Below, piece by piece: positions 4,521 to 35,444 of a DNA stretch of 64,000 bases. The stretch's first letter is position 1. Each line of letters begins with the position of its first letter. A model generated the notes under the pieces. That model was not told the DNA's origin. It made no database searches and was given only the letters and a program-made list of their open reading frames with translations. Position numbers and translations under genes: made by a program. Source of the DNA: Bradyrhizobium sp. AZCC 1719 (GTDB taxonomy: Bacteria; Pseudomonadota; Alphaproteobacteria; Rhizobiales; Xanthobacteraceae); NCBI RefSeq assembly GCF_036924525.1, contig NZ_JAZHRU010000001.1, positions 2,447,001-2,511,000 on the forward strand, written 5' to 3'.

Positions 4521-5963
<1,443 letters not shown>

Positions 5964-21553: not shown

Positions 21554-22102
21554 TCAGCCGCCATTGCCGCCGATCACGGCGCGCACGGTCTCGTCAGGTC
21601 CGAAATCCTCGGCGCCCTCGACATAGAGCAACGCGGAGAGTTTCGAGCGCGCGCGGTTGACGCGGCTCTTGATGGTGCCGACCGCGCAGCCGCAGATGGC
21701 GGCGGCGTCCTCGTAGGAGAAGCCGGAGGCACCGACCAGGATCAACGCTTCGCGCTGGTCCTGCGGCAGCTTGTCGAGCGCTGTGCGAAACTCCTCGAAC
21801 TCCAGATGCGCGTTTTGCGACGGCTGGGTCTTCAAAGTTTTCGCGTAATTGCCCTCGGCGTCCTCCACCTCGCGCCGCCGCTTGCGATAGTCCGAGCGAA
21901 ACAGGTTGCGCAGGATGGTGAACAACCAGGCCGGCAGGTTCGAGCCGGGCTGGAACGAGTCAATGTTGGCAATGGCGCGCAGCAACGTCTCCTGCACCAG
22001 GTCGTCTGCACGATCACCATTGCCCGAGAGCGAGATCGCGAACGCGCGCAGGCTGGGTACCGACGCCAAAATGTCGTCGCGAAGAGAGTCTGTGAGAGGC
22101 AT
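21554..22102 (-). CDS. ecfG: ECF sigma factor EcfG (general stress response)
   Basis: A 182-residue sigma factor of the EcfG group. Region 2 includes GNGDRADDLVQETLLRAIANI and AWLFTILRNLFRSDYRKRRR; region 4 is LDKLPQDQREALILVGASGF followed by SYEDAAAICGCAVGTIKSRV. It directs transcription from GGAAC-N16/17-CGTT promoters and is held by NepR until PhyR is phosphorylated. Its ATG overlaps the nepR stop by one base (TAATG, minus strand), coupling sigma to anti-sigma translation. Confidence 0.95.
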   Translation of the reverse strand: MPLTDSLRDDILASVPSLRAFAISLSGNGDRADDLVQETLLRAIANIDSFQPGSNLPAWLFTILRNLFRSDYRKRRREVEDAEGNYAKTLKTQPSQNAHLEFEEFRTALDKLPQDQREALILVGASGFSYEDAAAICGCAVGTIKSRVNRARSKLSALLYVEGAEDFGPDETVRAVIGGNGG

Positions 22103-22293
22103 TAGTCCCTCCCGTCTTCTTGTTTGTCGATTTGGGCCGCCGCCGCCTCCGGCCCATCGAGCTTCCGGATCAGCTCCGCAAAGCGGTCCGGCACGCCCTG
22201 TCGGACCACATCATCGTACATGGCGCGGAGCTGGTGGCCGATCCTTGATTGAATCTCGGCATTGAGCCCGCCCTGCTTTTTTGCTTCCTTCAT
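22102..22293 (-). CDS. nepR: anti-sigma factor NepR
   Basis: A 63-residue NepR. The core (LNAEIQSRIGHQLRAMYDDV, VRQGVPDRFAELIRKLD) has the two helices that clamp EcfG or the PhyR sigma-like domain. ATG 22293 (MKEAKKQGG) was chosen over a TTG at 22338, which would add 15 residues without a ribosome site. It is transcribed with ecfG and divergently from phyR, the conserved arrangement of the locus. Confidence 0.93.
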   Translation of the reverse strand: MKEAKKQGGLNAEIQSRIGHQLRAMYDDVVRQGVPDRFAELIRKLDGPEAAAAQIDKQEDGRD

Positions 22294-22388
22294 GGTCTGA
22301 TCCACGCTTCCCCGAGAGTTAATTCTCTGTGGTTTCAAGAGGTTACCTCGAAATTGGGCCTAGGCCGCCGCGTTATAGGTCAAAGGCT

Positions 22389-22413
22389 AATGCGAATATC
22401 TGCGGATGGTTCC
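22389..22413 (-). promoter_or_regulatory. possible EcfG promoter of nepR-ecfG (near-consensus)
   Basis: On the minus strand GGAAC (complement of 22409-22413) is followed after 16 bases by CATT, one mismatch to CGTT. It is placed about 95 bases before nepR. Autoregulation by EcfG is usual, but the -10 half is imperfect. Confidence 0.45.
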
Positions 22414-22607
22414 GAAATCTGGGAACCTTTTTTGGAACTTTTTTGCCTTCCGCGAGTAGTCGGGGTGACAGGGGAACCGGGTCCCCCCGAATCGAGCCTT
22501 AAAAAACTTTTAAATTGGCGCCGGACGCGGCGCACGAGGTTACGTCCGCCCAGATGCGACCCTAAGTAACGGCCATGGATACGGCCCAAGACAAGGATGG
22601 TATGGGG

Positions 22608-23414
22608 ATGTCCCGATCACAGCTCGTTGCTGAACATCTGCCGCTGTTGCGGCGCTATGCCCGTGCGCTCACCGGAAACCAGGCCTCGGGCGATGCTTAT
22701 GTGGCCGCCATGCTGGAGGCCCTGCTGCAGGATGCCTCGCTGCTGGATGAACGGTACGGCCCGCGCGCCGGGCTGTTCAAGCTGTTCACCCAGATCTGGA
22801 ATTCGGTCTCGCTCAACGACAATCCTGATGTCGCGACATTGGCGCTGCCGCCGGAGCGGCGGCTGTCGAACATCACGCCGCTGCCGCGGCAGGCGTTCCT
22901 CTTGCTGTCGCTCGAAGGCTTCTCCGAGGAAGAGGTGGCGTTCATTCTCAATACCGACATCGCCGAGACCCGGCAGTTGACGGATACCGCCGGCCGCGAG
23001 ATGGCGGCCGAAATCGCTACCGACGTCCTGATCATCGAGGACGAGACCTTCATCGCGATGGATCTCGAGAGCCTCGTGAAGAACCTCGGTCACAATGTTA
23101 TCGGCGTCGCCCGCACCCATGCCGACGCGGTCGCGCTCGCCAAGAACAAGAAGCCCGGCCTGATCCTCGCCGACATCCAGCTCGCCGACGGCTCGTCGGG
23201 CCTGGATGCGGTCAATGAATTGCTGCGCGCGTTCGAGGTGCCGGTGGTGTTCATCACCGCTTACCCCGAGCGCTTCCTGACCGGCGAACGCCCCGAGCCC
23301 GCGTTCCTGATCTCAAAACCGTTCCAGCCCGCAATGGTTTCGGCGGTCGCGAGCCAGGCGCTGTTCTTCCAGCGCAACTCGCGCAATCGCACCCCGCGCG
23401 CGGCCACCGGCTGA
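22608..23414 (+). CDS. phyR: response regulator PhyR
   Basis: A 268-residue anti-anti-sigma regulator. Residues 1-130 form a sigma-like domain (MSRSQLVAEHLPLLRRYARA, LPLPRQAFLLLSLEGFSEEE-type region 4 mimic) that sequesters NepR. Residues 138-255 are a FAT GUY-type receiver: acidic pair in VLIIEDETF, phospho-acceptor Asp189 in LILADIQLADG, VVFITAYPERFLTGERPEP, and the conserved Lys in LISKPF. ATG 22608 is the usual start; ATG 22575 would add 11 residues (MDTAQDKDGMG). It is divergent from nepR-ecfG and followed by a strong terminator. Confidence 0.95.
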   Translation: MSRSQLVAEHLPLLRRYARALTGNQASGDAYVAAMLEALLQDASLLDERYGPRAGLFKLFTQIWNSVSLNDNPDVATLALPPERRLSNITPLPRQAFLLLSLEGFSEEEVAFILNTDIAETRQLTDTAGREMAAEIATDVLIIEDETFIAMDLESLVKNLGHNVIGVARTHADAVALAKNKKPGLILADIQLADGSSGLDAVNELLRAFEVPVVFITAYPERFLTGERPEPAFLISKPFQPAMVSAVASQALFFQRNSRNRTPRAATG

Positions 23415-25851: not shown

Positions 25852-25877
25852 AACGAGAAAACAAACGGAAACGTTCC
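25852..25877 (-). promoter_or_regulatory. EcfG-type promoter match directed against the small RNA
   Basis: Minus strand GGAAC (complement of 25873-25877), 17 bases, CGTT (complement of 25852-25855). No minus-strand gene follows; a transcript would run antisense to the structured RNA at 25636-25766. It may be a chance match, since about one such match is expected in 64 kb. Confidence 0.3.
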
Positions 25878-27387: not shown

Positions 27388-27804
27388 ATGTCACAGATTT
27401 TCAAAGCAATTTTTGCCCTTCTCGCCGTCTTCGCCACGTTTGGCGCCGTTCAGCTTGCTTCCGGTCACGATCTCGCCAGCCGGCTGAAACTCGCCGCGAC
27501 CGCACCCGGAACAGACATCAACCGCGGGGCAGACATCAACCGCGCCGCCAAGGCCGACCGCGCGGCGGTCAAAGCCGCTGCGGGCCAGACCGAGACGATT
27601 ACCATCCGGACCGTCGGCCTCGAGGACACATCCGTGGTGGTCCGTGTTCCCGTGGTCCAGGAGGAGGCGCGGAACCGCCCGGCGCCACCGGCCAAGCCAG
27701 ACAACAAGCCCGGCAAATCGAAGACAACGATCGCCTGCGAACCGCCCGTCAGCGTGTTGACCGAAGTCGCAAAACTGCTCCAGCCCGGCCGCTGCGTGAC
27801 CTGA
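27388..27804 (+). CDS. hypothetical secreted protein
   Basis: A 138-residue protein with a signal-peptide-like start (MSQIFKAIFALLAVFATFGAVQLASG). The remainder is low in hydrophobicity, with a repeated TDINRGADINRAAKADRAA segment, a short beta-like stretch ETITIRTVGLEDTSVVVRVPV, a Pro-rich linker and two cysteines (TIACEPPV, PGRCVT) that could form a disulfide. No domain is recognised. Codon use fits the host. ATG 27388 follows GAGGGA. Confidence 0.7.
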   Translation: MSQIFKAIFALLAVFATFGAVQLASGHDLASRLKLAATAPGTDINRGADINRAAKADRAAVKAAAGQTETITIRTVGLEDTSVVVRVPVVQEEARNRPAPPAKPDNKPGKSKTTIACEPPVSVLTEVAKLLQPGRCVT

Positions 27805-28810: not shown

Positions 28811-29260
28811 CTACTCCGCCGGCGCTTCGCTCTCGCCGCTGCTGGCGTTGGCGCGGCTTGCCAAAAATCCCAGCGCCAGTCCGCCGATTGCGAGAATCGG
28901 GATCAGCTTCTTGACGCCGATGGCGCGGATCACCTGGATGCCGGTCGCGACCAGCACCGGATCGGACAGCACGGCCTGCGCGGTGGATTTCGCCTTCGCC
29001 GCCTGTTTGGCGCGCGCCTCGATCTGCCTCTTGCGCACCATGTACCAGCCGGCTGCGATGAGCGCGACCACGAAGAAGATGGCGGCACCGGTGAGGCAAG
29101 CCTGCACGGGACCGTACCGCTCCAGCACGAACACGAAGGCCGCTGCGCACAGAAAGGCGGCCGTGACCAGCAATGCTATCGCCGCCGCTGCCGCCAGCGA
29201 AGTCAGCCGCAACGCGGTGCCGGTCGATTCCTTGAAATCGTCGATCAGTCGCTGAAACAT
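28811..29260 (-). CDS. holin-like/DUF1469-type small membrane protein
   Basis: A 149-residue protein with an amphipathic start (MFQRLIDDFKESTGTALRLT), two long hydrophobic helices (LTSLAAAAAIALLVTAAFLC and AIFFVVALIAAGWYMV) and a third near 120-140 (LIPILAIGGLALGFLAS). The layout matches the putative 'phage holin family' (DUF1469) membrane proteins, often beside DUF883 proteins. ATG 29260 was chosen because the longer frame has no ribosome site. It follows the DUF883 gene on the same strand by 118 bases and probably shares its EcfG promoter. Confidence 0.75.
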   Translation of the reverse strand: MFQRLIDDFKESTGTALRLTSLAAAAAIALLVTAAFLCAAAFVFVLERYGPVQACLTGAAIFFVVALIAAGWYMVRKRQIEARAKQAAKAKSTAQAVLSDPVLVATGIQVIRAIGVKKLIPILAIGGLALGFLASRANASSGESEAPAE

Positions 29261-29378: not shown

Positions 29379-29738
29379 CTACCTACGCCACGCCACGCCG
29401 ATCAGAAAGCCGATCCCCAGCGCCACGGCGACGGTTGCCAGCGGACGCTGCGTGATGGCGTCTTCCAGCGTCTCCTCGATCGAAGAGGCGGCGTCTTGGG
29501 CCGCGTCCATCATCGCGCTGCCGCGCTCCGACACGTCGTCGACCACCTGTTCTGCATTGGCGCGCGCCTGCCTGTAGCCATGCCGCGCCTGCTTGCCGGC
29601 GGAGCCGGCAAAACTGCTCAGCGCCTCGGTGATCTGCTCGGTCAGGGCTGCGATATCGTTTTTCACAGCGGTCACGTCCTTCTGCAGGCGCTCGTAGGTC
29701 GCTTTGTCCGTCAGATTCTTCATTGCTGCGTCAGACAT
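29379..29738 (-). CDS. DUF883 family protein (ElaB/YqjD-like), EcfG-controlled
   Basis: A 119-residue protein with a helical, coiled-coil-like body (KATYERLQKDVTAVKNDIAA, SIEETLEDAITQRP) and a single C-terminal membrane anchor ending LATVAVALGIGFLIGVAWRR. This is the plan of ElaB/YqjD, tail-anchored proteins linked to stationary-phase ribosomes and stress. A perfect EcfG promoter lies 37-61 bases upstream, giving a leader of about 30 bases. Confidence 0.85.
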   Translation of the reverse strand: MSDAAMKNLTDKATYERLQKDVTAVKNDIAALTEQITEALSSFAGSAGKQARHGYRQARANAEQVVDDVSERGSAMMDAAQDAASSIEETLEDAITQRPLATVAVALGIGFLIGVAWRR

Positions 29739-29774
29739 CGAAAGCTCCCGGGTACTGAGTTCATTCGCGGAACA

Positions 29775-29799
29775 AACGCTCCGCCGAATGGGAAGTTCC
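29775..29799 (-). promoter_or_regulatory. EcfG promoter of the DUF883 / holin-like genes
   Basis: Minus strand GGAAC (complement of 29795-29799), exactly 16 bases, CGTT (complement of 29775-29778). It lies in the gap between two minus-strand genes and is properly placed for the DUF883 start at 29738. Confidence 0.85.
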
Positions 29800-29804
29800 T
29801 CGCC

Positions 29805-30992
29805 CTAGTCCTCCGGCAGTTGCGGCGAAGCCAGCGGCATCAAGTGCTCCTTGACGATCAGCGCGACGATCAGAAGCGGCGACGACAGGAACGCGCCCAT
29901 CGGGCCCCACAGCCAGGTCCAGAACGCCACCGCCAGGAATACTGCAAGCGCGTTCAGCGCCAGCCGGCGGCCGACGATCGTCGGCGTCAGGAAATGGCCT
30001 TCCAGGAAAGTCATCACGGCGAACATGGCCGGCGCCAGCAGCCCGGCGCCGATGGTCGGGAATGCGACAAGGCCGACCACGACCAGCACGGCAAACATCG
30101 CCACCGGGCCGATGATCGGAATGAAATTCAGGATCGCCGCCAGTGCGCCGAGACTGGCCGGGTTGGGCATGCCCGTGACCGCGCAGATCAGGCCGGTGGC
30201 GATGCCGACGCCGGCATTGATCATGGTCACCACCAACAGATAGTTGCCGAGATGCTCCTCGATCTCGTTGAGGATCCGCAGCGTCCGCAGCCGCCACGCC
30301 CGCTCGCCGAAATTCAGGATCAGGGCCCGGCGCAGGTCCCGCCAGCTCGCGATGAACAGGATCAGCGTTGCGATGAACAGCAGGAATTCGGCAAAGGTCG
30401 GCGACAGGAATTCCAGCGTCGGCTGCACCCAGTCGACCTTGGGCAGATGCAATGTCGTCAGAGTATCGGGCCCGCCGAGCATGCTCTGCAGCTCCTGCCA
30501 CTGAGCGAGCGGCCGGTCGAACACGCGCAGCTTGTCCCTCAAGAGTGCTCCCAGCTCCGGAAGCTTGCTGCTCCATTCGATTGCGGGCGAGGCGATCAGG
30601 CCGACCATGAAAGCGGCGGCGGCGCTGGTGGCCGCCACGATCAGTACCGCGGCGACCGCGCGCGGAATGCGGTAGCGCTCCAGGAAGCTGGCGGCCGGCG
30701 ACAGCATGGTCCCGACGATAAAAGCCATCGTGATCGGCAGAAGGAGCGGCTTGGCGAGATAGAGACCGGTAATGATGCAGATGACCAGGAGGCCAACGAG
30801 CGAGATCGCCACCAGTTCAGTGCGGCGGATGACCGGCGGCTGCTCTGCCTTGCTGTCGGGGATCGGCGCGCCTTCGTGCCCGTTGGGAAGCTGGCGTTCG
30901 CCGGGCAATGGCTTTGTCGGCTGAGATTTGGAAGCCAAAGGCTTGGCGGACGAACGCTTGGGTGGAGGCGGCTTGGTGGGAATGACGCTCAC
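29805..30992 (-). CDS. AI-2E family permease (PF01594)
   Basis: A 395-residue polytopic protein with about seven helices (LVAISLVGLLVICIITGLYL, AAVLIVAATSAAAAFMVGLI, GLVAFPTIGAGLLAPAMFAV). It has an N-terminal Pro/Lys-rich cytoplasmic segment. Members export small molecules or ions; the AI-2 name is historical and the substrate here is unknown. GTG 30992 (MSVIPTKPPPP) was chosen: GAGGGAA lies upstream, and the EcfG promoter at 31063-31087 would leave almost no leader for the longer frame beginning at 31046. Confidence 0.85.
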   Translation of the reverse strand: MSVIPTKPPPPKRSSAKPLASKSQPTKPLPGERQLPNGHEGAPIPDSKAEQPPVIRRTELVAISLVGLLVICIITGLYLAKPLLLPITMAFIVGTMLSPAASFLERYRIPRAVAAVLIVAATSAAAAFMVGLIASPAIEWSSKLPELGALLRDKLRVFDRPLAQWQELQSMLGGPDTLTTLHLPKVDWVQPTLEFLSPTFAEFLLFIATLILFIASWRDLRRALILNFGERAWRLRTLRILNEIEEHLGNYLLVVTMINAGVGIATGLICAVTGMPNPASLGALAAILNFIPIIGPVAMFAVLVVVGLVAFPTIGAGLLAPAMFAVMTFLEGHFLTPTIVGRRLALNALAVFLAVAFWTWLWGPMGAFLSSPLLIVALIVKEHLMPLASPQLPED

Positions 30993-31062
30993 AAATGGTT
31001 TTCCCTCGCCCGAAGCTGCGGTGACACGGCAACAGCGACGTCGCAAACCGGACTGGAATCAG

Positions 31063-31087
31063 AACGTGATGTGGAGGCGCGGGTTCC
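31063..31087 (-). promoter_or_regulatory. EcfG promoter of the AI-2E permease gene
   Basis: Minus strand GGAAC (complement of 31083-31087), 16 bases, CGTT (complement of 31063-31066): a full match. Expected transcription start is near 31056, about 64 bases before GTG 30992. Confidence 0.83.
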
Positions 31088-31145
31088 ATCGCGCAGGCGT
31101 GAGCGGTGCCGCGCGTGGCGCGATGCGCGGCGGTGCCGGCGGCAC

Positions 31146-31170
31146 GGAACCGCCGGCTCGCGGCGGCGTT
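31146..31170 (+). promoter_or_regulatory. EcfG promoter of the L,D-transpeptidase gene
   Basis: Plus strand GGAAC 31146-31150, 16 bases, CGTT 31167-31170: a full match. Expected start is near 31177, about 42 bases before ATG 31219. It is divergent from the promoter at 31063-31087, with 58 bases between the two -35 elements. Confidence 0.85.
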
Positions 31171-31218
31171 TGTTGGAGCAGAGCATCCAGCGATGCACAA
31201 TCCCACGGGGCAGGTCCC

Positions 31219-31980
31219 ATGACACAGTCCTCCGATCGCCGGCTTTCGTCGCGCGTGGCGAGCGCGTTTGTTCTCGTCGCCGCCGTTTTGCTGATGCCGT
31301 TGAGTGCTGCGAACGCGCAGACGCGCGACTACGCATCCACCCAGCCGAATGGCTATCCTGCCGATGAGGTGATTGCGTCCGACGAGGGCGCGACGCCCGA
31401 ACGGCTTCGCCGTGCTGTCGTCCCCTTCGGAACGACGGAGGCGCCGGGCACCATCGTCATCGATACCGGCAACACCACGCTCTATTATGTGCTCGGCCAG
31501 GGCCGGGCCATCAGATACGGCGTCGGCGTTGGCCGCGAAGGCTTTACCTGGGCCGGGATGCAGACCATCAGCCGCAAGGCGGAATGGCCGGACTGGCATC
31601 CACCCAGCCAGATGATCGCGCGCCAGCCCTATCTGCCGCGCTTCATGGCCGGTGGTCCCGGCAATCCGCTCGGCGCGCGGGCGATGTATCTCGGCACCAG
31701 CCAGTACCGCATTCACGGCACCAACGATCCCTCGACGATCGGGAAATTCGTCTCGTCCGGCTGCATCCGCCTGGTCAATGAGGACGTCATAGATCTGTTT
31801 AACCGCGTCGATGTCGGCACCAGGGTCGTGGTGCTGCCGAAGAGAGCGCCGGTCATGGCGCGCGGCGGGGATTCCAGGACCGGCATCACGGCTCGTCCGT
31901 CTGCCGCGCATCCGCGCCCCGTCGCAATCGCGCCGTCGGGCCGCCAGGCGATGAACCTGACGCCGCCGGAGCTGAACTGA
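31219..31980 (+). CDS. L,D-transpeptidase (YkuD domain), exported
   Basis: A 253-residue protein with a signal peptide (SRVASAFVLVAAVLLMPLSA, cleaved near ANAQ). The YkuD domain runs from about 75 to 210, with the catalytic motif HGTNDPSTIGKFVSSGCIRL (His, then Ser-x-Gly-Cys-x-Arg, Cys nucleophile). Such enzymes make 3-3 cross-links in peptidoglycan or attach proteins to it, a common envelope-stress function. ATG 31219 gives the signal peptide directly; the longer open frame overlaps the divergent promoter. DUF2865 follows after 25 bases. Confidence 0.93.
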   Translation: MTQSSDRRLSSRVASAFVLVAAVLLMPLSAANAQTRDYASTQPNGYPADEVIASDEGATPERLRRAVVPFGTTEAPGTIVIDTGNTTLYYVLGQGRAIRYGVGVGREGFTWAGMQTISRKAEWPDWHPPSQMIARQPYLPRFMAGGPGNPLGARAMYLGTSQYRIHGTNDPSTIGKFVSSGCIRLVNEDVIDLFNRVDVGTRVVVLPKRAPVMARGGDSRTGITARPSAAHPRPVAIAPSGRQAMNLTPPELN

Positions 31981-32005
31981 AGTGATGCGTGAGAGGAGCC
32001 CGTTG

Positions 32006-32647
32006 ATGCGATCGGGAAAACTGGCGGCATGGGGAGCAGCCGCGCTGGCGTGCGCGTCGGCGCTGGCGCCTGCCGCGCAGGCGCAGGACTTCTTCTCGCA
32101 ACTATTCGGTGGATTCGCCCGCCCGCGCCATCAGCCAAATATCCAGATGCCGTTTCCCAATGACGACGGCCAGGTGTATGCGCCGCGCGGCGAGGGGCGC
32201 ACCCGTTACGGCGGTGGCGGCCAGGCGTATTGCGTGCGGACCTGCGACGGGCGCTACTTCCCGCTCACAGCGTCCGACAACGCTAGCCGGGGGACCTCCT
32301 GCAACAAGCTATGCCCGGCGAGCGAGACCAGGGTGTTCTACGGCAGCAGCATCGACGACGCGGCCGCCGAGAACGGAAAGGCCTATTCGGAATTGCCGAA
32401 CGCGTTCCGCTATCGCAATGAACTCGTCAGCGGCTGCACCTGCAACGGCAAGGACCAGGTCGGGCTGGCGCAGGTCAAGATCGAGGACGACCCGACGCTG
32501 CGCAAGGGCGACATCGTCGCCGGCGAGAACGGACTCCTGGTCGTGGGCCGCAGCGGCGACAGGCGCGGCACTGAGCTGAACTTCTCACCTGCCTCCGGCA
32601 AGGCCCGCGCCAAGTATGGGCGGGTGCCCGTGGTGGCGCGGGATTGA
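32006..32647 (+). CDS. DUF2865 family secreted protein
   Basis: A 213-residue exported protein with signal peptide (WGAAALACASALAPAAQAQD). The middle part, YCVRTCDGRYFPLTASDNAS, NKLCPASETRVFYGSSIDDA and ELVSGCTCNGKDQVGLAQVK, is the Cys-rich DUF2865 pattern of rhizobia; the function is unknown. ATG 32006 has GAGAGGAG eight bases upstream; GTG 31982 and ATG 31985 are alternatives. It is probably co-transcribed with the L,D-transpeptidase, so also EcfG-dependent by inference. Confidence 0.85.
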   Translation: MRSGKLAAWGAAALACASALAPAAQAQDFFSQLFGGFARPRHQPNIQMPFPNDDGQVYAPRGEGRTRYGGGGQAYCVRTCDGRYFPLTASDNASRGTSCNKLCPASETRVFYGSSIDDAAAENGKAYSELPNAFRYRNELVSGCTCNGKDQVGLAQVKIEDDPTLRKGDIVAGENGLLVVGRSGDRRGTELNFSPASGKARAKYGRVPVVARD

Positions 32648-32684
32648 TCGCTGTCATGCCCCGGGCATGACGGGTGGAGGTGAA

Positions 32685-34778
32685 CTAAGCCGCGCGGATC
32701 TTACCGAGGAACGCGGTGACCTGATTGCCGAGTTGCTGGCTCTGCGTCTCCAGCGTCTGGGAAGCCTGCTTGACGTCCTCGGCGGCGGCCGCTGCCGCGT
32801 CGGCATCGGCCTTCACGCCGGTGATGTTGTCGGACACGTTCTTGGTGCCCTGCGCGGCAAACTGAGTGCTGCGGGTGATCTCCTGCGTCGCGGCTCCCTG
32901 TTGCTGCACGGCGGCGGCAATCGCGGTCGCGACCTCGTTGACCTCGCCGATGATGCTGCCGATGCCCTTGATGGCGTCGATGGCCTCGCCGGCCACCCGC
33001 TGGATGTCCGAGATCTGCTCGGAAATCTCCTCGGTCGCCTTCGCGGTCTGGCTCGCCAGCGATTTTACCTCGGAGGCGACCACCGCAAAGCCGCGGCCGG
33101 CCTCGCCGGCGCGCGCAGCCTCGATGGTGGCGTTGAGTGCCAAGAGGTTGGTCTGTGCGGCGATGGTATTGATCAGGCCGACGACTTCGCCGATCCGCCC
33201 TGCCGATTGCGCCAGCCCCTGAACGGTGCCGTCGGTGTTGCGCGCCTGGCCGACCGCGCGGCTGGCGATGCTGGCGGCATGCGCCGCCTGCTGGCTGATG
33301 TCGTTGATCGAGGCGCTGAGCTCTTCGGAAGCCGCAGCGACCGTCTCGACGCTCATCGAGGCGTCGCCGGAGGCCTTCTCGGCGACCTGGACGCGCTCGT
33401 TGGTCTGGCGCGAAATCGTCGAGAGGCCGGTCGAGGTGGTCCGCATCTGGCCGGAAGCATCGCCGAGCTGGTTGAGCGTCTGGCGCACCATGCCCTCGAA
33501 CTCGCCGACATAGCTCTCGATCGCCTGCTGCCGCGCCATCGCGCCGGCGTTGCGCTCGCGCTCCTGCGCCTCGATCCGCGCCTTGTCGGCGGCCTGCTGC
33601 TTGAACGTCTCCAGTGCGCCGGCCAGCGCGCCGATTTCGTCGTGGCGCGCCGCATAGCCGGTATCGACGCCGAGGTCGCCGGCGGCGACTTTCAGCATGG
33701 CGTCGCGCATGGCGTGCAGCGGCTTGATGACGCGGCGGGTAACGATCGCCATGGCGCCGAACGCCAGCGCCAGCGCGCCGATCAGCAATGCGAGCTGCAT
33801 CGTCAGCGAGCGTTGGGCGGTGGAGCGCAGGTGCGCGGCGTGATCCTTGGCGGCGTCAAGCGCGGCTTCGGCCACGGCGACGGCGGCAGCGAGACGCCCG
33901 ACCGTGACCGGGGTCCACTGGTTGGCGGTCAGTTCCGACTTCTCGCCGGCCGCAACCTGCGTCAGCAACCGGTCGCGCAGAGCGAGATATTGCGGCTCGA
34001 AATAGGCGGTTTTGGTTGCAGCCATGGCGCTCGAGATCGCCGGGGGCAACTGCATCCCCGCTGCCGTCAATTCCAGCGCGCTCCAGGCGGCGTCGATGCC
34101 GCCAGTATATTTCGTATAGGCGAGCCTCATCTCAGGCGCGACCTTGCCGGTATTGAGCCCGTTCGAGACGATCAGCGAGGCCTCGCCGGCGGTGTTGCGC
34201 AACAGCCAGGCGATCTGCTTGATCGCCAGCAACTGGTCGATGGTCGCGTCCTGGTGATTGACGGCCGCACCCAGCGCCCTGGACAGCTTCTCCAGCGTCT
34301 CCAGCATGGCACTTGCGGCAGCAAAGTATTCCTTGGCCAGCTCGGGTCGGCGCGCGGCCTTCGGCTTGGCCACGGCTTCCCAGAACTCCTTCTGCAGCGC
34401 CGTCATCGTCTTGTAGAGGCGGTCGAACTCGGGGACCAGCGTCTGGTGCTGTGCGAAGTCGATGCCGCCGAGCAGGCCGAGCGCGTTGCCCATCGCCGGC
34501 ATTTCGGTGTCGCGGATGTTGCGCAGATACTTCTCGATATCGGCATCCATCGGCGCATCGGAATTCAAGAGCCGGTTGGTCGTGGAGCGATCGGTGCGCA
34601 GATTGTGCATCGCCTTGAACATGTTTGCGGAGGCGTCGGCGATGACCGCAATGCGGCTCGCCACCTGCAAGCGGCCCCAGGAGTCCCAGGCGTTGAGCGA
34701 AAATCCAATCACCACGCAGATTGAGGTGACGAGGATGACGGTTTTCAGCAGCGCGGATACGGTCAGACGGTTCAACAT
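32685..34778 (-). CDS. methyl-accepting chemotaxis protein
   Basis: A 697-residue chemoreceptor. TM1 is near residues 8-30 ([20 protein letters not shown]), the periplasmic helical domain runs to about 335, TM2 is near 340-360 ([20 protein letters not shown]), then HAMP and the long signalling coiled coil with the hairpin tip around [20 protein letters not shown]. No CheR-binding pentapeptide is seen at the C-terminus. ATG 34778 was chosen: GGGGGAG lies just upstream, and the extra 51 residues of the longer frame lack a ribosome site. The ligand is unknown. Confidence 0.93.
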
Positions 34779-34909
34779 GATGCTCCCCCGAGGCGTCGTG
34801 GCCATTTGGAGGGCAAACGGTAAATACTTATCGAGTGAGAGCCCGCGTAGTACTACGAGGATTCCTTGAAATGACTGCAATTTTCCAAGCGGGCTCGGTT
34901 CCGTGACGC

Positions 34910-34934
34910 GGAACCCGGCGCGCTTGTTCACGTT
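34910..34934 (+). promoter_or_regulatory. EcfG promoter of the 50-residue membrane peptide gene
   Basis: Plus strand GGAAC 34910-34914, 16 bases, CGTT 34931-34934: a full match. Expected start is near 34941, 45 bases before ATG 34986. Confidence 0.85.
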
Positions 34935-34985
34935 AACAAAACACTACCAGCGCATTTTTCCGGCCAACGCCGAAGGGGGCTTCGC

Positions 34986-35138
34986 ATGCTTGTCAGCATA
35001 CTCATCACGTTTCTGGTCGTTATCCTCGTCCTCTATCTCATCAACCTCCTGCCGATCGACGGCCGCGCCAAGCAGATCGCCCGCGTCGTGGTGATCATTC
35101 TGGGCGTGATCTCGCTGTTGAGATACATCTCGGTCTAA
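34986..35138 (+). CDS. small membrane peptide of 50 residues (Thivi_2564-like)
   Basis: A 50-residue peptide of two hydrophobic helices: MLVSILITFLVVILVLYLIN, a short polar loop LLPIDGRAKQ, and IARVVVIILGVISLLRYISV. This is the plan of the small 'Thivi_2564 family' membrane proteins. It has its own EcfG promoter and its own terminator, so it is a real stress gene despite its size. The ribosome site is weak (GAAGGGGGC nine bases upstream). Confidence 0.85.
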   Translation: MLVSILITFLVVILVLYLINLLPIDGRAKQIARVVVIILGVISLLRYISV

Positions 35139-35142
35139 AACG

Positions 35143-35169
35143 AAAAGCCCCGACGGATGCGGGGCTTTT
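35143..35169. terminator. bidirectional intrinsic terminator
   Basis: AAAAGCCCCG (35143-35152) pairs perfectly with CGGGGCTTTT (35160-35169) across a 7-base loop. It serves the small plus-strand peptide gene and the convergent CsbD gene. Confidence 0.87.
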
Positions 35170-35189
35170 GGTGTTCGGAAAGCGAGGGC

Positions 35190-35390
35190 CTACTTCAACG
35201 TCTTGAACCAGTCGTCGACGTCCTTGCGGATCTGGTCCTTGGCGAAGCCGTAGCGCTGCTGCAGCTTGCCTTCGAGTTGTTCGCGGCGGCCCTCGATGAC
35301 GTTCAGATCGTCATCGGTAAGCTTGCCCCACTTCTCCTTGGCGGAGCCCTTGAACTGTTTCCAGTTGCCTTCAACCCTGTTCCAATCCAT
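35190..35390 (-). CDS. CsbD family stress protein
   Basis: A 66-residue hydrophilic helical protein: MDWNRVEGNWKQFKGSAKEK and KLTDDDLNVIEGRREQLEGK are the CsbD pattern. CsbD-like proteins are strongly induced under general stress; the molecular role is unknown. ATG 35390 is eight bases after AGGAGG; ATG 35396 (MAMDW) is only two bases from it and less likely. A perfect EcfG promoter lies 30-54 bases upstream. Confidence 0.92.
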   Translation of the reverse strand: MDWNRVEGNWKQFKGSAKEKWGKLTDDDLNVIEGRREQLEGKLQQRYGFAKDQIRKDVDDWFKTLK

Positions 35391-35419
35391 CGCCATCTCC
35401 TCCTCTTGGTATGGCGATC

Positions 35420-35444
35420 AACGGACAAAAAGCTCGGGCGTTCC
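35420..35444 (-). promoter_or_regulatory. EcfG promoter of the csbD-like gene
   Basis: Minus strand GGAAC (complement of 35440-35444), 16 bases, CGTT (complement of 35420-35423): a full match, directly upstream of the CsbD gene. Confidence 0.87.

Follow-up and report, generated by a model that had tools for sequence, protein, structure and literature searches.

The analyzed window is a 64,000-nucleotide stretch of Bradyrhizobium sp. AZCC 1719 (contig NZ_JAZHRU010000001.1, positions 2,447,001 to 2,511,000), in which a group of genes is preceded by promoter-type sequences of EcfG, the sigma factor of the general stress response. The group, hereafter the island, comprises genes for a holin-like membrane protein, a DUF883 protein, an AI-2E family transporter, an L,D-transpeptidase, a DUF2865 protein, a 50-residue membrane protein and a CsbD-like protein, and all three PhyR-NepR-EcfG regulators are encoded together at 21554-23414 in the same window (Table 1). 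An earlier reading of this DNA (the original prediction) had claimed five GGAAC-N16-CGTT sites as EcfG promoters of a stress regulon lying beside its regulator, and all five were recovered at the claimed coordinates and strands, each with a 16-base spacer.

The five sites carry both the -35 box GGAAC and the -10 box CGTT in exact form, with a spacer inside the 16-17 base range, and the lists of open reading frames (ORFs) together with the sequence bore out that they are intergenic and directed at a gene. By coordinates, the CGTT box lies 36 bases from the start of the DUF883 gene, 70 from that of the AI-2E gene (GTG at 30992), 48 from that of the L,D-transpeptidase, 51 from that of the 50-residue protein and 29 from that of CsbD if translation begins at ATG 35390 (23 if at 35396), the first choice giving a range of 29-70 bases. 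About one chance match per window had been expected; 100 dinucleotide shuffles of the window gave a mean of 0.50 exact matches and a maximum of 3, and none reached the 6 present in the real sequence. The sixth match (4739-4763, minus strand), absent from the original prediction, was set aside as a promoter because it falls inside an ORF at 4521-5963(-) whose motifs, judged by eye rather than by a family search, look like those of a DEAD-box helicase; this match is probably due to chance. The five intergenic sites span 5,670 bases, a density reached in 5 of 20,000 random placements of the 111 exact sites of the genome; elsewhere, among the 100 listed of these 111, no 5.7 kb held more than two. 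A second dense stretch, with five exact sites in 20 kb, was seen at G000:C1:4765431-4785197 (again among the 100 listed). The chemotaxis gene (MCP) inside the cluster and glcB beside it have no site.

Table 1 Features of the regulator locus and of the island, with family matches (scores and cut-offs in bits) or conservation in the loci compared
Feature	Position	Strand	Basis
ecfG, general stress response sigma factor	21554..22102	-	Pfam sigma-70 r2/r4; NCBIfam NF009192 393.7, cut-off 307
nepR, anti-sigma factor	22102..22338	-	Pfam NepR PF18557 58.3, cut-off 25.7
nepR-ecfG EcfG-type promoter, GGAAC-N16-CATT, variant -10	22389..22413	-	comparison with 25 loci
phyR, response regulator/anti-anti-sigma factor	22575..23414	+	NF006623 364.1, cut-off 240
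Small protein, secreted-type by eye, lying between phyR and island	27388..27804	+	no EcfG-type site in the window
Holin-like membrane protein, downstream of DUF883	28811..29260	-	PF07332 20, below cut-off 28.4
DUF883 (ElaB/YqjD-type) protein	29379..29738	-	PF05957 33, cut-off 25.4
DUF883 EcfG-type promoter, exact	29775..29799	-	conserved, 34/34 loci
AI-2E family transporter	29805..30992	-	PF01594 128.2, cut-off 34.3
AI-2E EcfG-type promoter, exact	31063..31087	-	lineage-limited, 12/32 loci
L,D-transpeptidase EcfG-type promoter, exact	31146..31170	+	conserved, 33/33 loci
L,D-transpeptidase (YkuD)	31219..31980	+	PF03734 86.1, cut-off 23.4
DUF2865 protein	31982..32647	+	PF11064 121.3, cut-off 22.4
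Chemotaxis gene (MCP), within cluster	32685-34778		no EcfG-type site
50-residue protein EcfG-type promoter, exact	34910..34934	+	conserved, 32/32 loci
50-residue membrane protein, Thivi_2564 family	34986..35138	+	NF041949 55.7, cut-off 33
CsbD-like protein, start possibly ATG 35390	35190..35396	-	PF05532 81.8, cut-off 40
csbD EcfG-type promoter, exact	35420..35444	-	conserved, 18/18 loci

Conservation within the genus was followed in 33 fetched regions plus the window, found through orthologues of the L,D-transpeptidase. The 300 bases upstream of each gene were scanned for GGAAC-N15-17-NGTT, a pattern that fixes GGAAC and GTT and leaves the C of CGTT free, and copies that aligned after query residue 30 or had fewer than 150 bases upstream were omitted. 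Gene order was identical across the 33 regions, save for missing genes, insertions and short contigs. In the loci counted in Table 1, which include the window, the site was present before every scanned copy of the DUF883 gene (32 exact; reversed-string control 2/34), of the 50-residue protein gene (26 exact; control 0/32) and of csbD (17 exact; control 0/18), as well as before every L,D-transpeptidase gene (control 1/33), where 10 sites were exact, 19 read N17-CGTT and four had N16 with TGTT or GGTT. The spacer of this last promoter (L061-L093) was 16 bases long in the closest relatives of the window and 17 in 19 of the 33 loci. The unconstrained C was invariant in the N16 copies of the DUF883, 50-residue protein and CsbD sites and in the N17 copies of the L,D-transpeptidase site, while the spacers have diverged (mean pairwise identity 0.38-0.56); its identity was 0.52 in the N16 L,D-transpeptidase copies and 0.78 in the AI-2E copies. 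No site was found in these regions before the genes of the block for which none had been predicted (holin-like 0/34, DUF2865 0/30, MCP 0/27, glcB 0/32, cysNC 0/24, MFS 0/3). Sites on the opposite strand occur at the AI-2E, L,D-transpeptidase and MCP genes because the promoters of divergent neighbours lie there.

Two further sets were scanned over 150 bases upstream with N16 or N17 spacers, omitting alignments that started after residue 20 or had fewer than 120 bases upstream; the first rule removed 25 named and 7 family-level AI-2E copies and 36 named L,D-transpeptidase copies, the last figure including loci outside the island. The named set comprised 80 fetched loci, the closest from Bradyrhizobium, of which 48 hold the island and 32 without it were left out; the island loci cover Bradyrhizobium, Tardiphaga (L115), Rhodopseudomonas (L132, L138-L140) and Afipia (L134, L136, L137). 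The site preceded 38 of 39 DUF883 genes, all 42 L,D-transpeptidase genes, 40 of 42 genes of the 50-residue protein and all 26 csbD genes, with a reversed control of 0 for each of these core genes and for AI-2E; for the other genes the counts were 0/38 (holin-like), 0/34 (DUF2865), 1/43 (glcB), 0/22 (cysNC) and 0/27 (MCP). The family-level set consisted of 20 regions from other genera, picked by a DUF883 match from 295 genomes searched. Two were dropped, L197, in which no gene matched, and L199, in which DUF883 stood alone, and in the 18 usable ones the site was found before DUF883 in 16/18, the 50-residue protein in 12/14, the L,D-transpeptidase in 7/7, CsbD in 4/4 and DUF2865 in 1/7 cases. 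The same-genus, named and family-level sets share four identical pairs of loci, and their counts are not additive.

The list of five sites was right as far as it went but lacked a variant site before nepR-ecfG. Upstream of nepR, GGAAC-N16-N(A/G)TT was found in 24 of 25 loci including the window (reversed-string control 1/25), with -10 boxes of the types CATT (12 loci, among them the window), AATT (6), CGTT (4), GATT (1) and AGTT (1). For Sphingopyxis, replacing CGTT by CATT was found to reduce in vitro transcription (PMC7083833).

The distance between island and regulator was also compared. The original prediction had put ecfG-nepR-phyR 8 kb to the left, which holds for the neighbourhood but not for the distance, as the end of phyR lies 5.4 kb and ecfG-nepR 6.5-7.3 kb from the first island gene. 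Where both could be located, the gap from phyR to the holin-like or AI-2E gene was 0.7-1.1 kb in 16 loci of other genera and 1.1-7.0 kb in ten Bradyrhizobium loci. Nine of the 13 loci L182-L194 of the family-level set showed a phyR gene, the exceptions being L182, L183, L187 and L189. Since short gaps recur in other genera, the linkage is probably ancestral and was later lost in places without loss of the promoters. In 35 same-genus genomes, for which distances were compared by eye and not by script, a single contig carried phyR and the L,D-transpeptidase gene no more than about 16 kb apart in 13 and separated by about 1 Mb or more in seven; in 12 the two were on different contigs, and three genomes could not be assigned. 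The DUF883, L,D-transpeptidase and 50-residue protein sites are kept in each of the seven genomes with this wide separation (L081, L083-L085, L089, L091, L092), as is the csbD site in the four of them where that gene was found, so the sites can be retained without linkage; the island stands beside its regulator here, but need not. In B. diazoefficiens, glcB and EcfG are probably unlinked, judging from their locus numbers, bll1474 (PMC4519974) and Blr7797 (PMC3420878); bsl1473, listed without description (PMC8632152), might at a guess be csbD.

Because the sites are conserved at orthologous places, we consider it highly probable that this region represents an old island of the general stress response in the Bradyrhizobium family, read by EcfG through a known mechanism. 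With four of the five signatures retained, its genes are very probably under genuine stress control, of a kind already known. Following the published mechanism, PhyR activated by stress would pull NepR from EcfG, and EcfG with RNA polymerase would then initiate transcription, at predicted start points, from the conserved GGAAC-N16/17-CGTT sites. Four core units would be served: DUF883 plus the holin-like gene, the L,D-transpeptidase plus DUF2865, the gene of the 50-residue membrane protein, and csbD. EcfG may also read the lineage-specific site before the AI-2E gene, and the variant, perhaps weaker site before nepR-ecfG would provide feedback. The term "compact regulon" used before claims too much: EcfG of B. 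diazoefficiens controls > 100 genes (PMC8092242), so the island can make up no more than part of its regulon.

Several results weigh against this reading, among them those for the AI-2E gene, whose site exists in the window but is lineage-limited. In the same-genus loci that include the window it was found in 12 (10 exact, mainly in the closest relatives; reversed-string control 3/32) and was absent from 20/32; it was present in 9/21 and absent in 12/21 named loci, and was missing from 4/4 scannable family-level loci. The six nearest relatives (L061-L066) keep it at the same distance, and elsewhere it is scattered or absent. A hidden weak site in other Bradyrhizobium was considered by allowing one mismatch, which gave 16/31 loci (reversed control 4/31), and was rejected; outside the closest clade, the positions of these matches were scattered. 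The core itself has gaps: one DUF883 gene and two copies of the 50-residue protein gene lack the site among the named loci, two of each lack it in the family-level set, and the DUF883 gene of the dropped locus L199 has none. Moreover, DUF883 was found in 0/4 of the Rhodopseudomonas loci (L132, L138-L140), and csbD in 17 of the 33 other same-genus loci, showing that core genes are not everywhere. Upstream of phyR (22339-22574) no EcfG-type site was found in the window, nor in 22 of 25 loci including it, and three of the 25 have one, unlike a review in which both regulator units have an EcfG-type site (PMC8103513). Finally, in one genome (G006, locus L076; 93% complete) no close EcfG or PhyR was found and exact sites still precede DUF883, the 50-residue protein and CsbD; this absence is possibly a real loss or possibly an assembly gap.

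The genome-wide counts also belong on this side. The 7.2 Mb single-contig genome to which the window belongs has 111 exact N16 sites; with spacers of 17 and 19 bases the counts were 53 and 63. Across 36 genomes of the genus, GGAAC-Nx-CGTT totalled 3572 (N16), 1846 (N17) and 2543 (N19), with N16 exceeding N19 in 33/36. The backwards-read pattern gave 4100, 2428 and 2555 (G000-G035), exceeded N19 with N16 in 36/36 genomes and, in this genome, had 119 matches compared with 111 forward. The excess of N16 over N19 was therefore withdrawn as support, since the backwards pattern behaves likewise, and the counts say nothing for EcfG; an excess over the control pattern, itself a weak test for single sites, was not found, the backwards pattern being equally common or commoner. 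Many of the 111 matches may be due to chance; the genome-wide counts are uninformative, and the promoter call rests on conservation. The bias of the backwards pattern toward 16 over 17 or 19 bases calls for caution in using such counts as controls.

At the edge facing the regulators, homologues of the small secreted-type protein were found in 53 of 102 sequences searched, including the window; 12 of them have an EcfG-type site, 10 outside Bradyrhizobium (reversed control 1).

For the gene products, the two genes without a site of their own that follow a core gene are probable operon partners, the holin-like gene of DUF883 and DUF2865 of the L,D-transpeptidase. The holin-like protein falls below the PF07332 cut-off, and 11/15 of its orthologues match the family, to which we take YqjE to belong, at E <= 0.01 (best 6.3e-07); a YqjD-YqjE-type pair with both members above their curated cut-offs was thus not found in the window, where DUF883 lies above and PF07332 below. 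The DUF883 protein scored 30.1 bits against NF007709 (ElaB), below the cut-off of 139. The L,D-transpeptidase has the YkuD domain with the catalytic cysteine motif, H166-G167 and S180-G181-C182-I183-R184 being invariant across 9 aligned orthologues. The DUF2865 ORF starts one base past its stop, and the encoded protein has six cysteines invariant in a 30-sequence alignment and an N-terminus that, by eye, looks like a signal peptide; its predicted structure (30 orthologues) was too poor to use (mean predicted local distance difference test score, pLDDT, 60.1; predicted template modelling score, pTM, 0.37). The "envelope-protection programme" proposed for these products has its basis in family names, from which a membrane or cell-wall role can be guessed.

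Whether the grouping itself means anything is a separate matter. The sites may be real EcfG promoters of neighbours that kept old promoters by vertical inheritance, and we give somewhat less than even credence to this account, which opposes only the "programme" and is compatible with an EcfG-read island. It fits that seven genomes keep the sites with phyR about 1 Mb or more away, that MCP and glcB, in or next to the island, lack a site, and that the products have no common pathway beyond stress or membrane labels, while the gene order and short phyR distances recurring in several genera suggest some benefit of linkage, or at least inheritance as a unit. More tentatively, the region could descend from a self-contained unit of a regulator with its own membrane or cell-wall effectors, the source of the larger regulon. 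Such a history might include changes at the edge around four constant units (the AI-2E site gained in one lineage, that of the secreted-type protein mostly lost in Bradyrhizobium) and, just as speculatively, a regulator whose -10 box stays off consensus and is perhaps weaker, and an L,D-transpeptidase promoter that switched between 16- and 17-base spacers. As for the reader of the sites, many ECF factors use AAC-type -35 boxes, and another one of similar preference could be the main one in place of EcfG. The genome has 14 weaker EcfG matches, the best two 38% and 36% identical, and G006 keeps its sites with no close EcfG found; this is nevertheless unlikely, as the genome has only one close EcfG, the boxes are identical to the published EcfG consensus (PMC7083833) and the island adjoins ecfG-nepR-phyR in many loci. 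That the sites arose by chance in GC-rich intergenic DNA, in line with genome-wide matches being no commoner than the backwards pattern, is hardly credible and was rejected for four of the five (AI-2E being less secure) because these are conserved at orthologous places, with diverged spacers, low reversed controls and clustering.

The proposed EcfG-read island can be set beside known systems, in the first place the EcfG (ECF15) system of Alphaproteobacteria, which has the same promoter boxes, the same regulator genes and csbD as a target (PMC7083833, PMC8103513); in Sphingopyxis, GGAAC-N16-CGTT is the consensus and csbD a direct target (PMC7083833). For B. diazoefficiens and R. palustris, one paper places a predicted GsrN, a small RNA controlled by EcfG, close to this locus, with proximity and an EcfG site upstream as the sole grounds (PMC5869019). 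In this part of the window, the sole exact-box site left over is GGAAC-N17-CGTT at 25852-25877(-), between the NYN and MFS genes, and it was rejected as the promoter of a GsrN-like RNA, having no counterpart upstream of MFS in two other loci scanned; Rfam gave no match in window positions 18000-40000. The yqjCDEK/elaB genes of E. coli likewise place a DUF883-type gene followed by one for a membrane protein under a general stress sigma factor, RpoS, and the yqjD promoter is sigma-S-dependent (PMC10746276), but the sigma factor is another one and the holin-like match of the window lies below the PF07332 cut-off. A literature search gave no report of this island arrangement in the parts available, and the B. 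japonicum regulon paper (Gourion 2009) could list the genes. EcfG promoters are known already, as is the targeting of csbD, and the extent of the island, its conserved core and the holin-like and DUF2865 partners may be new; compared with known EcfG systems, what differs here is that several genera of one family link four core target units to the regulator locus.

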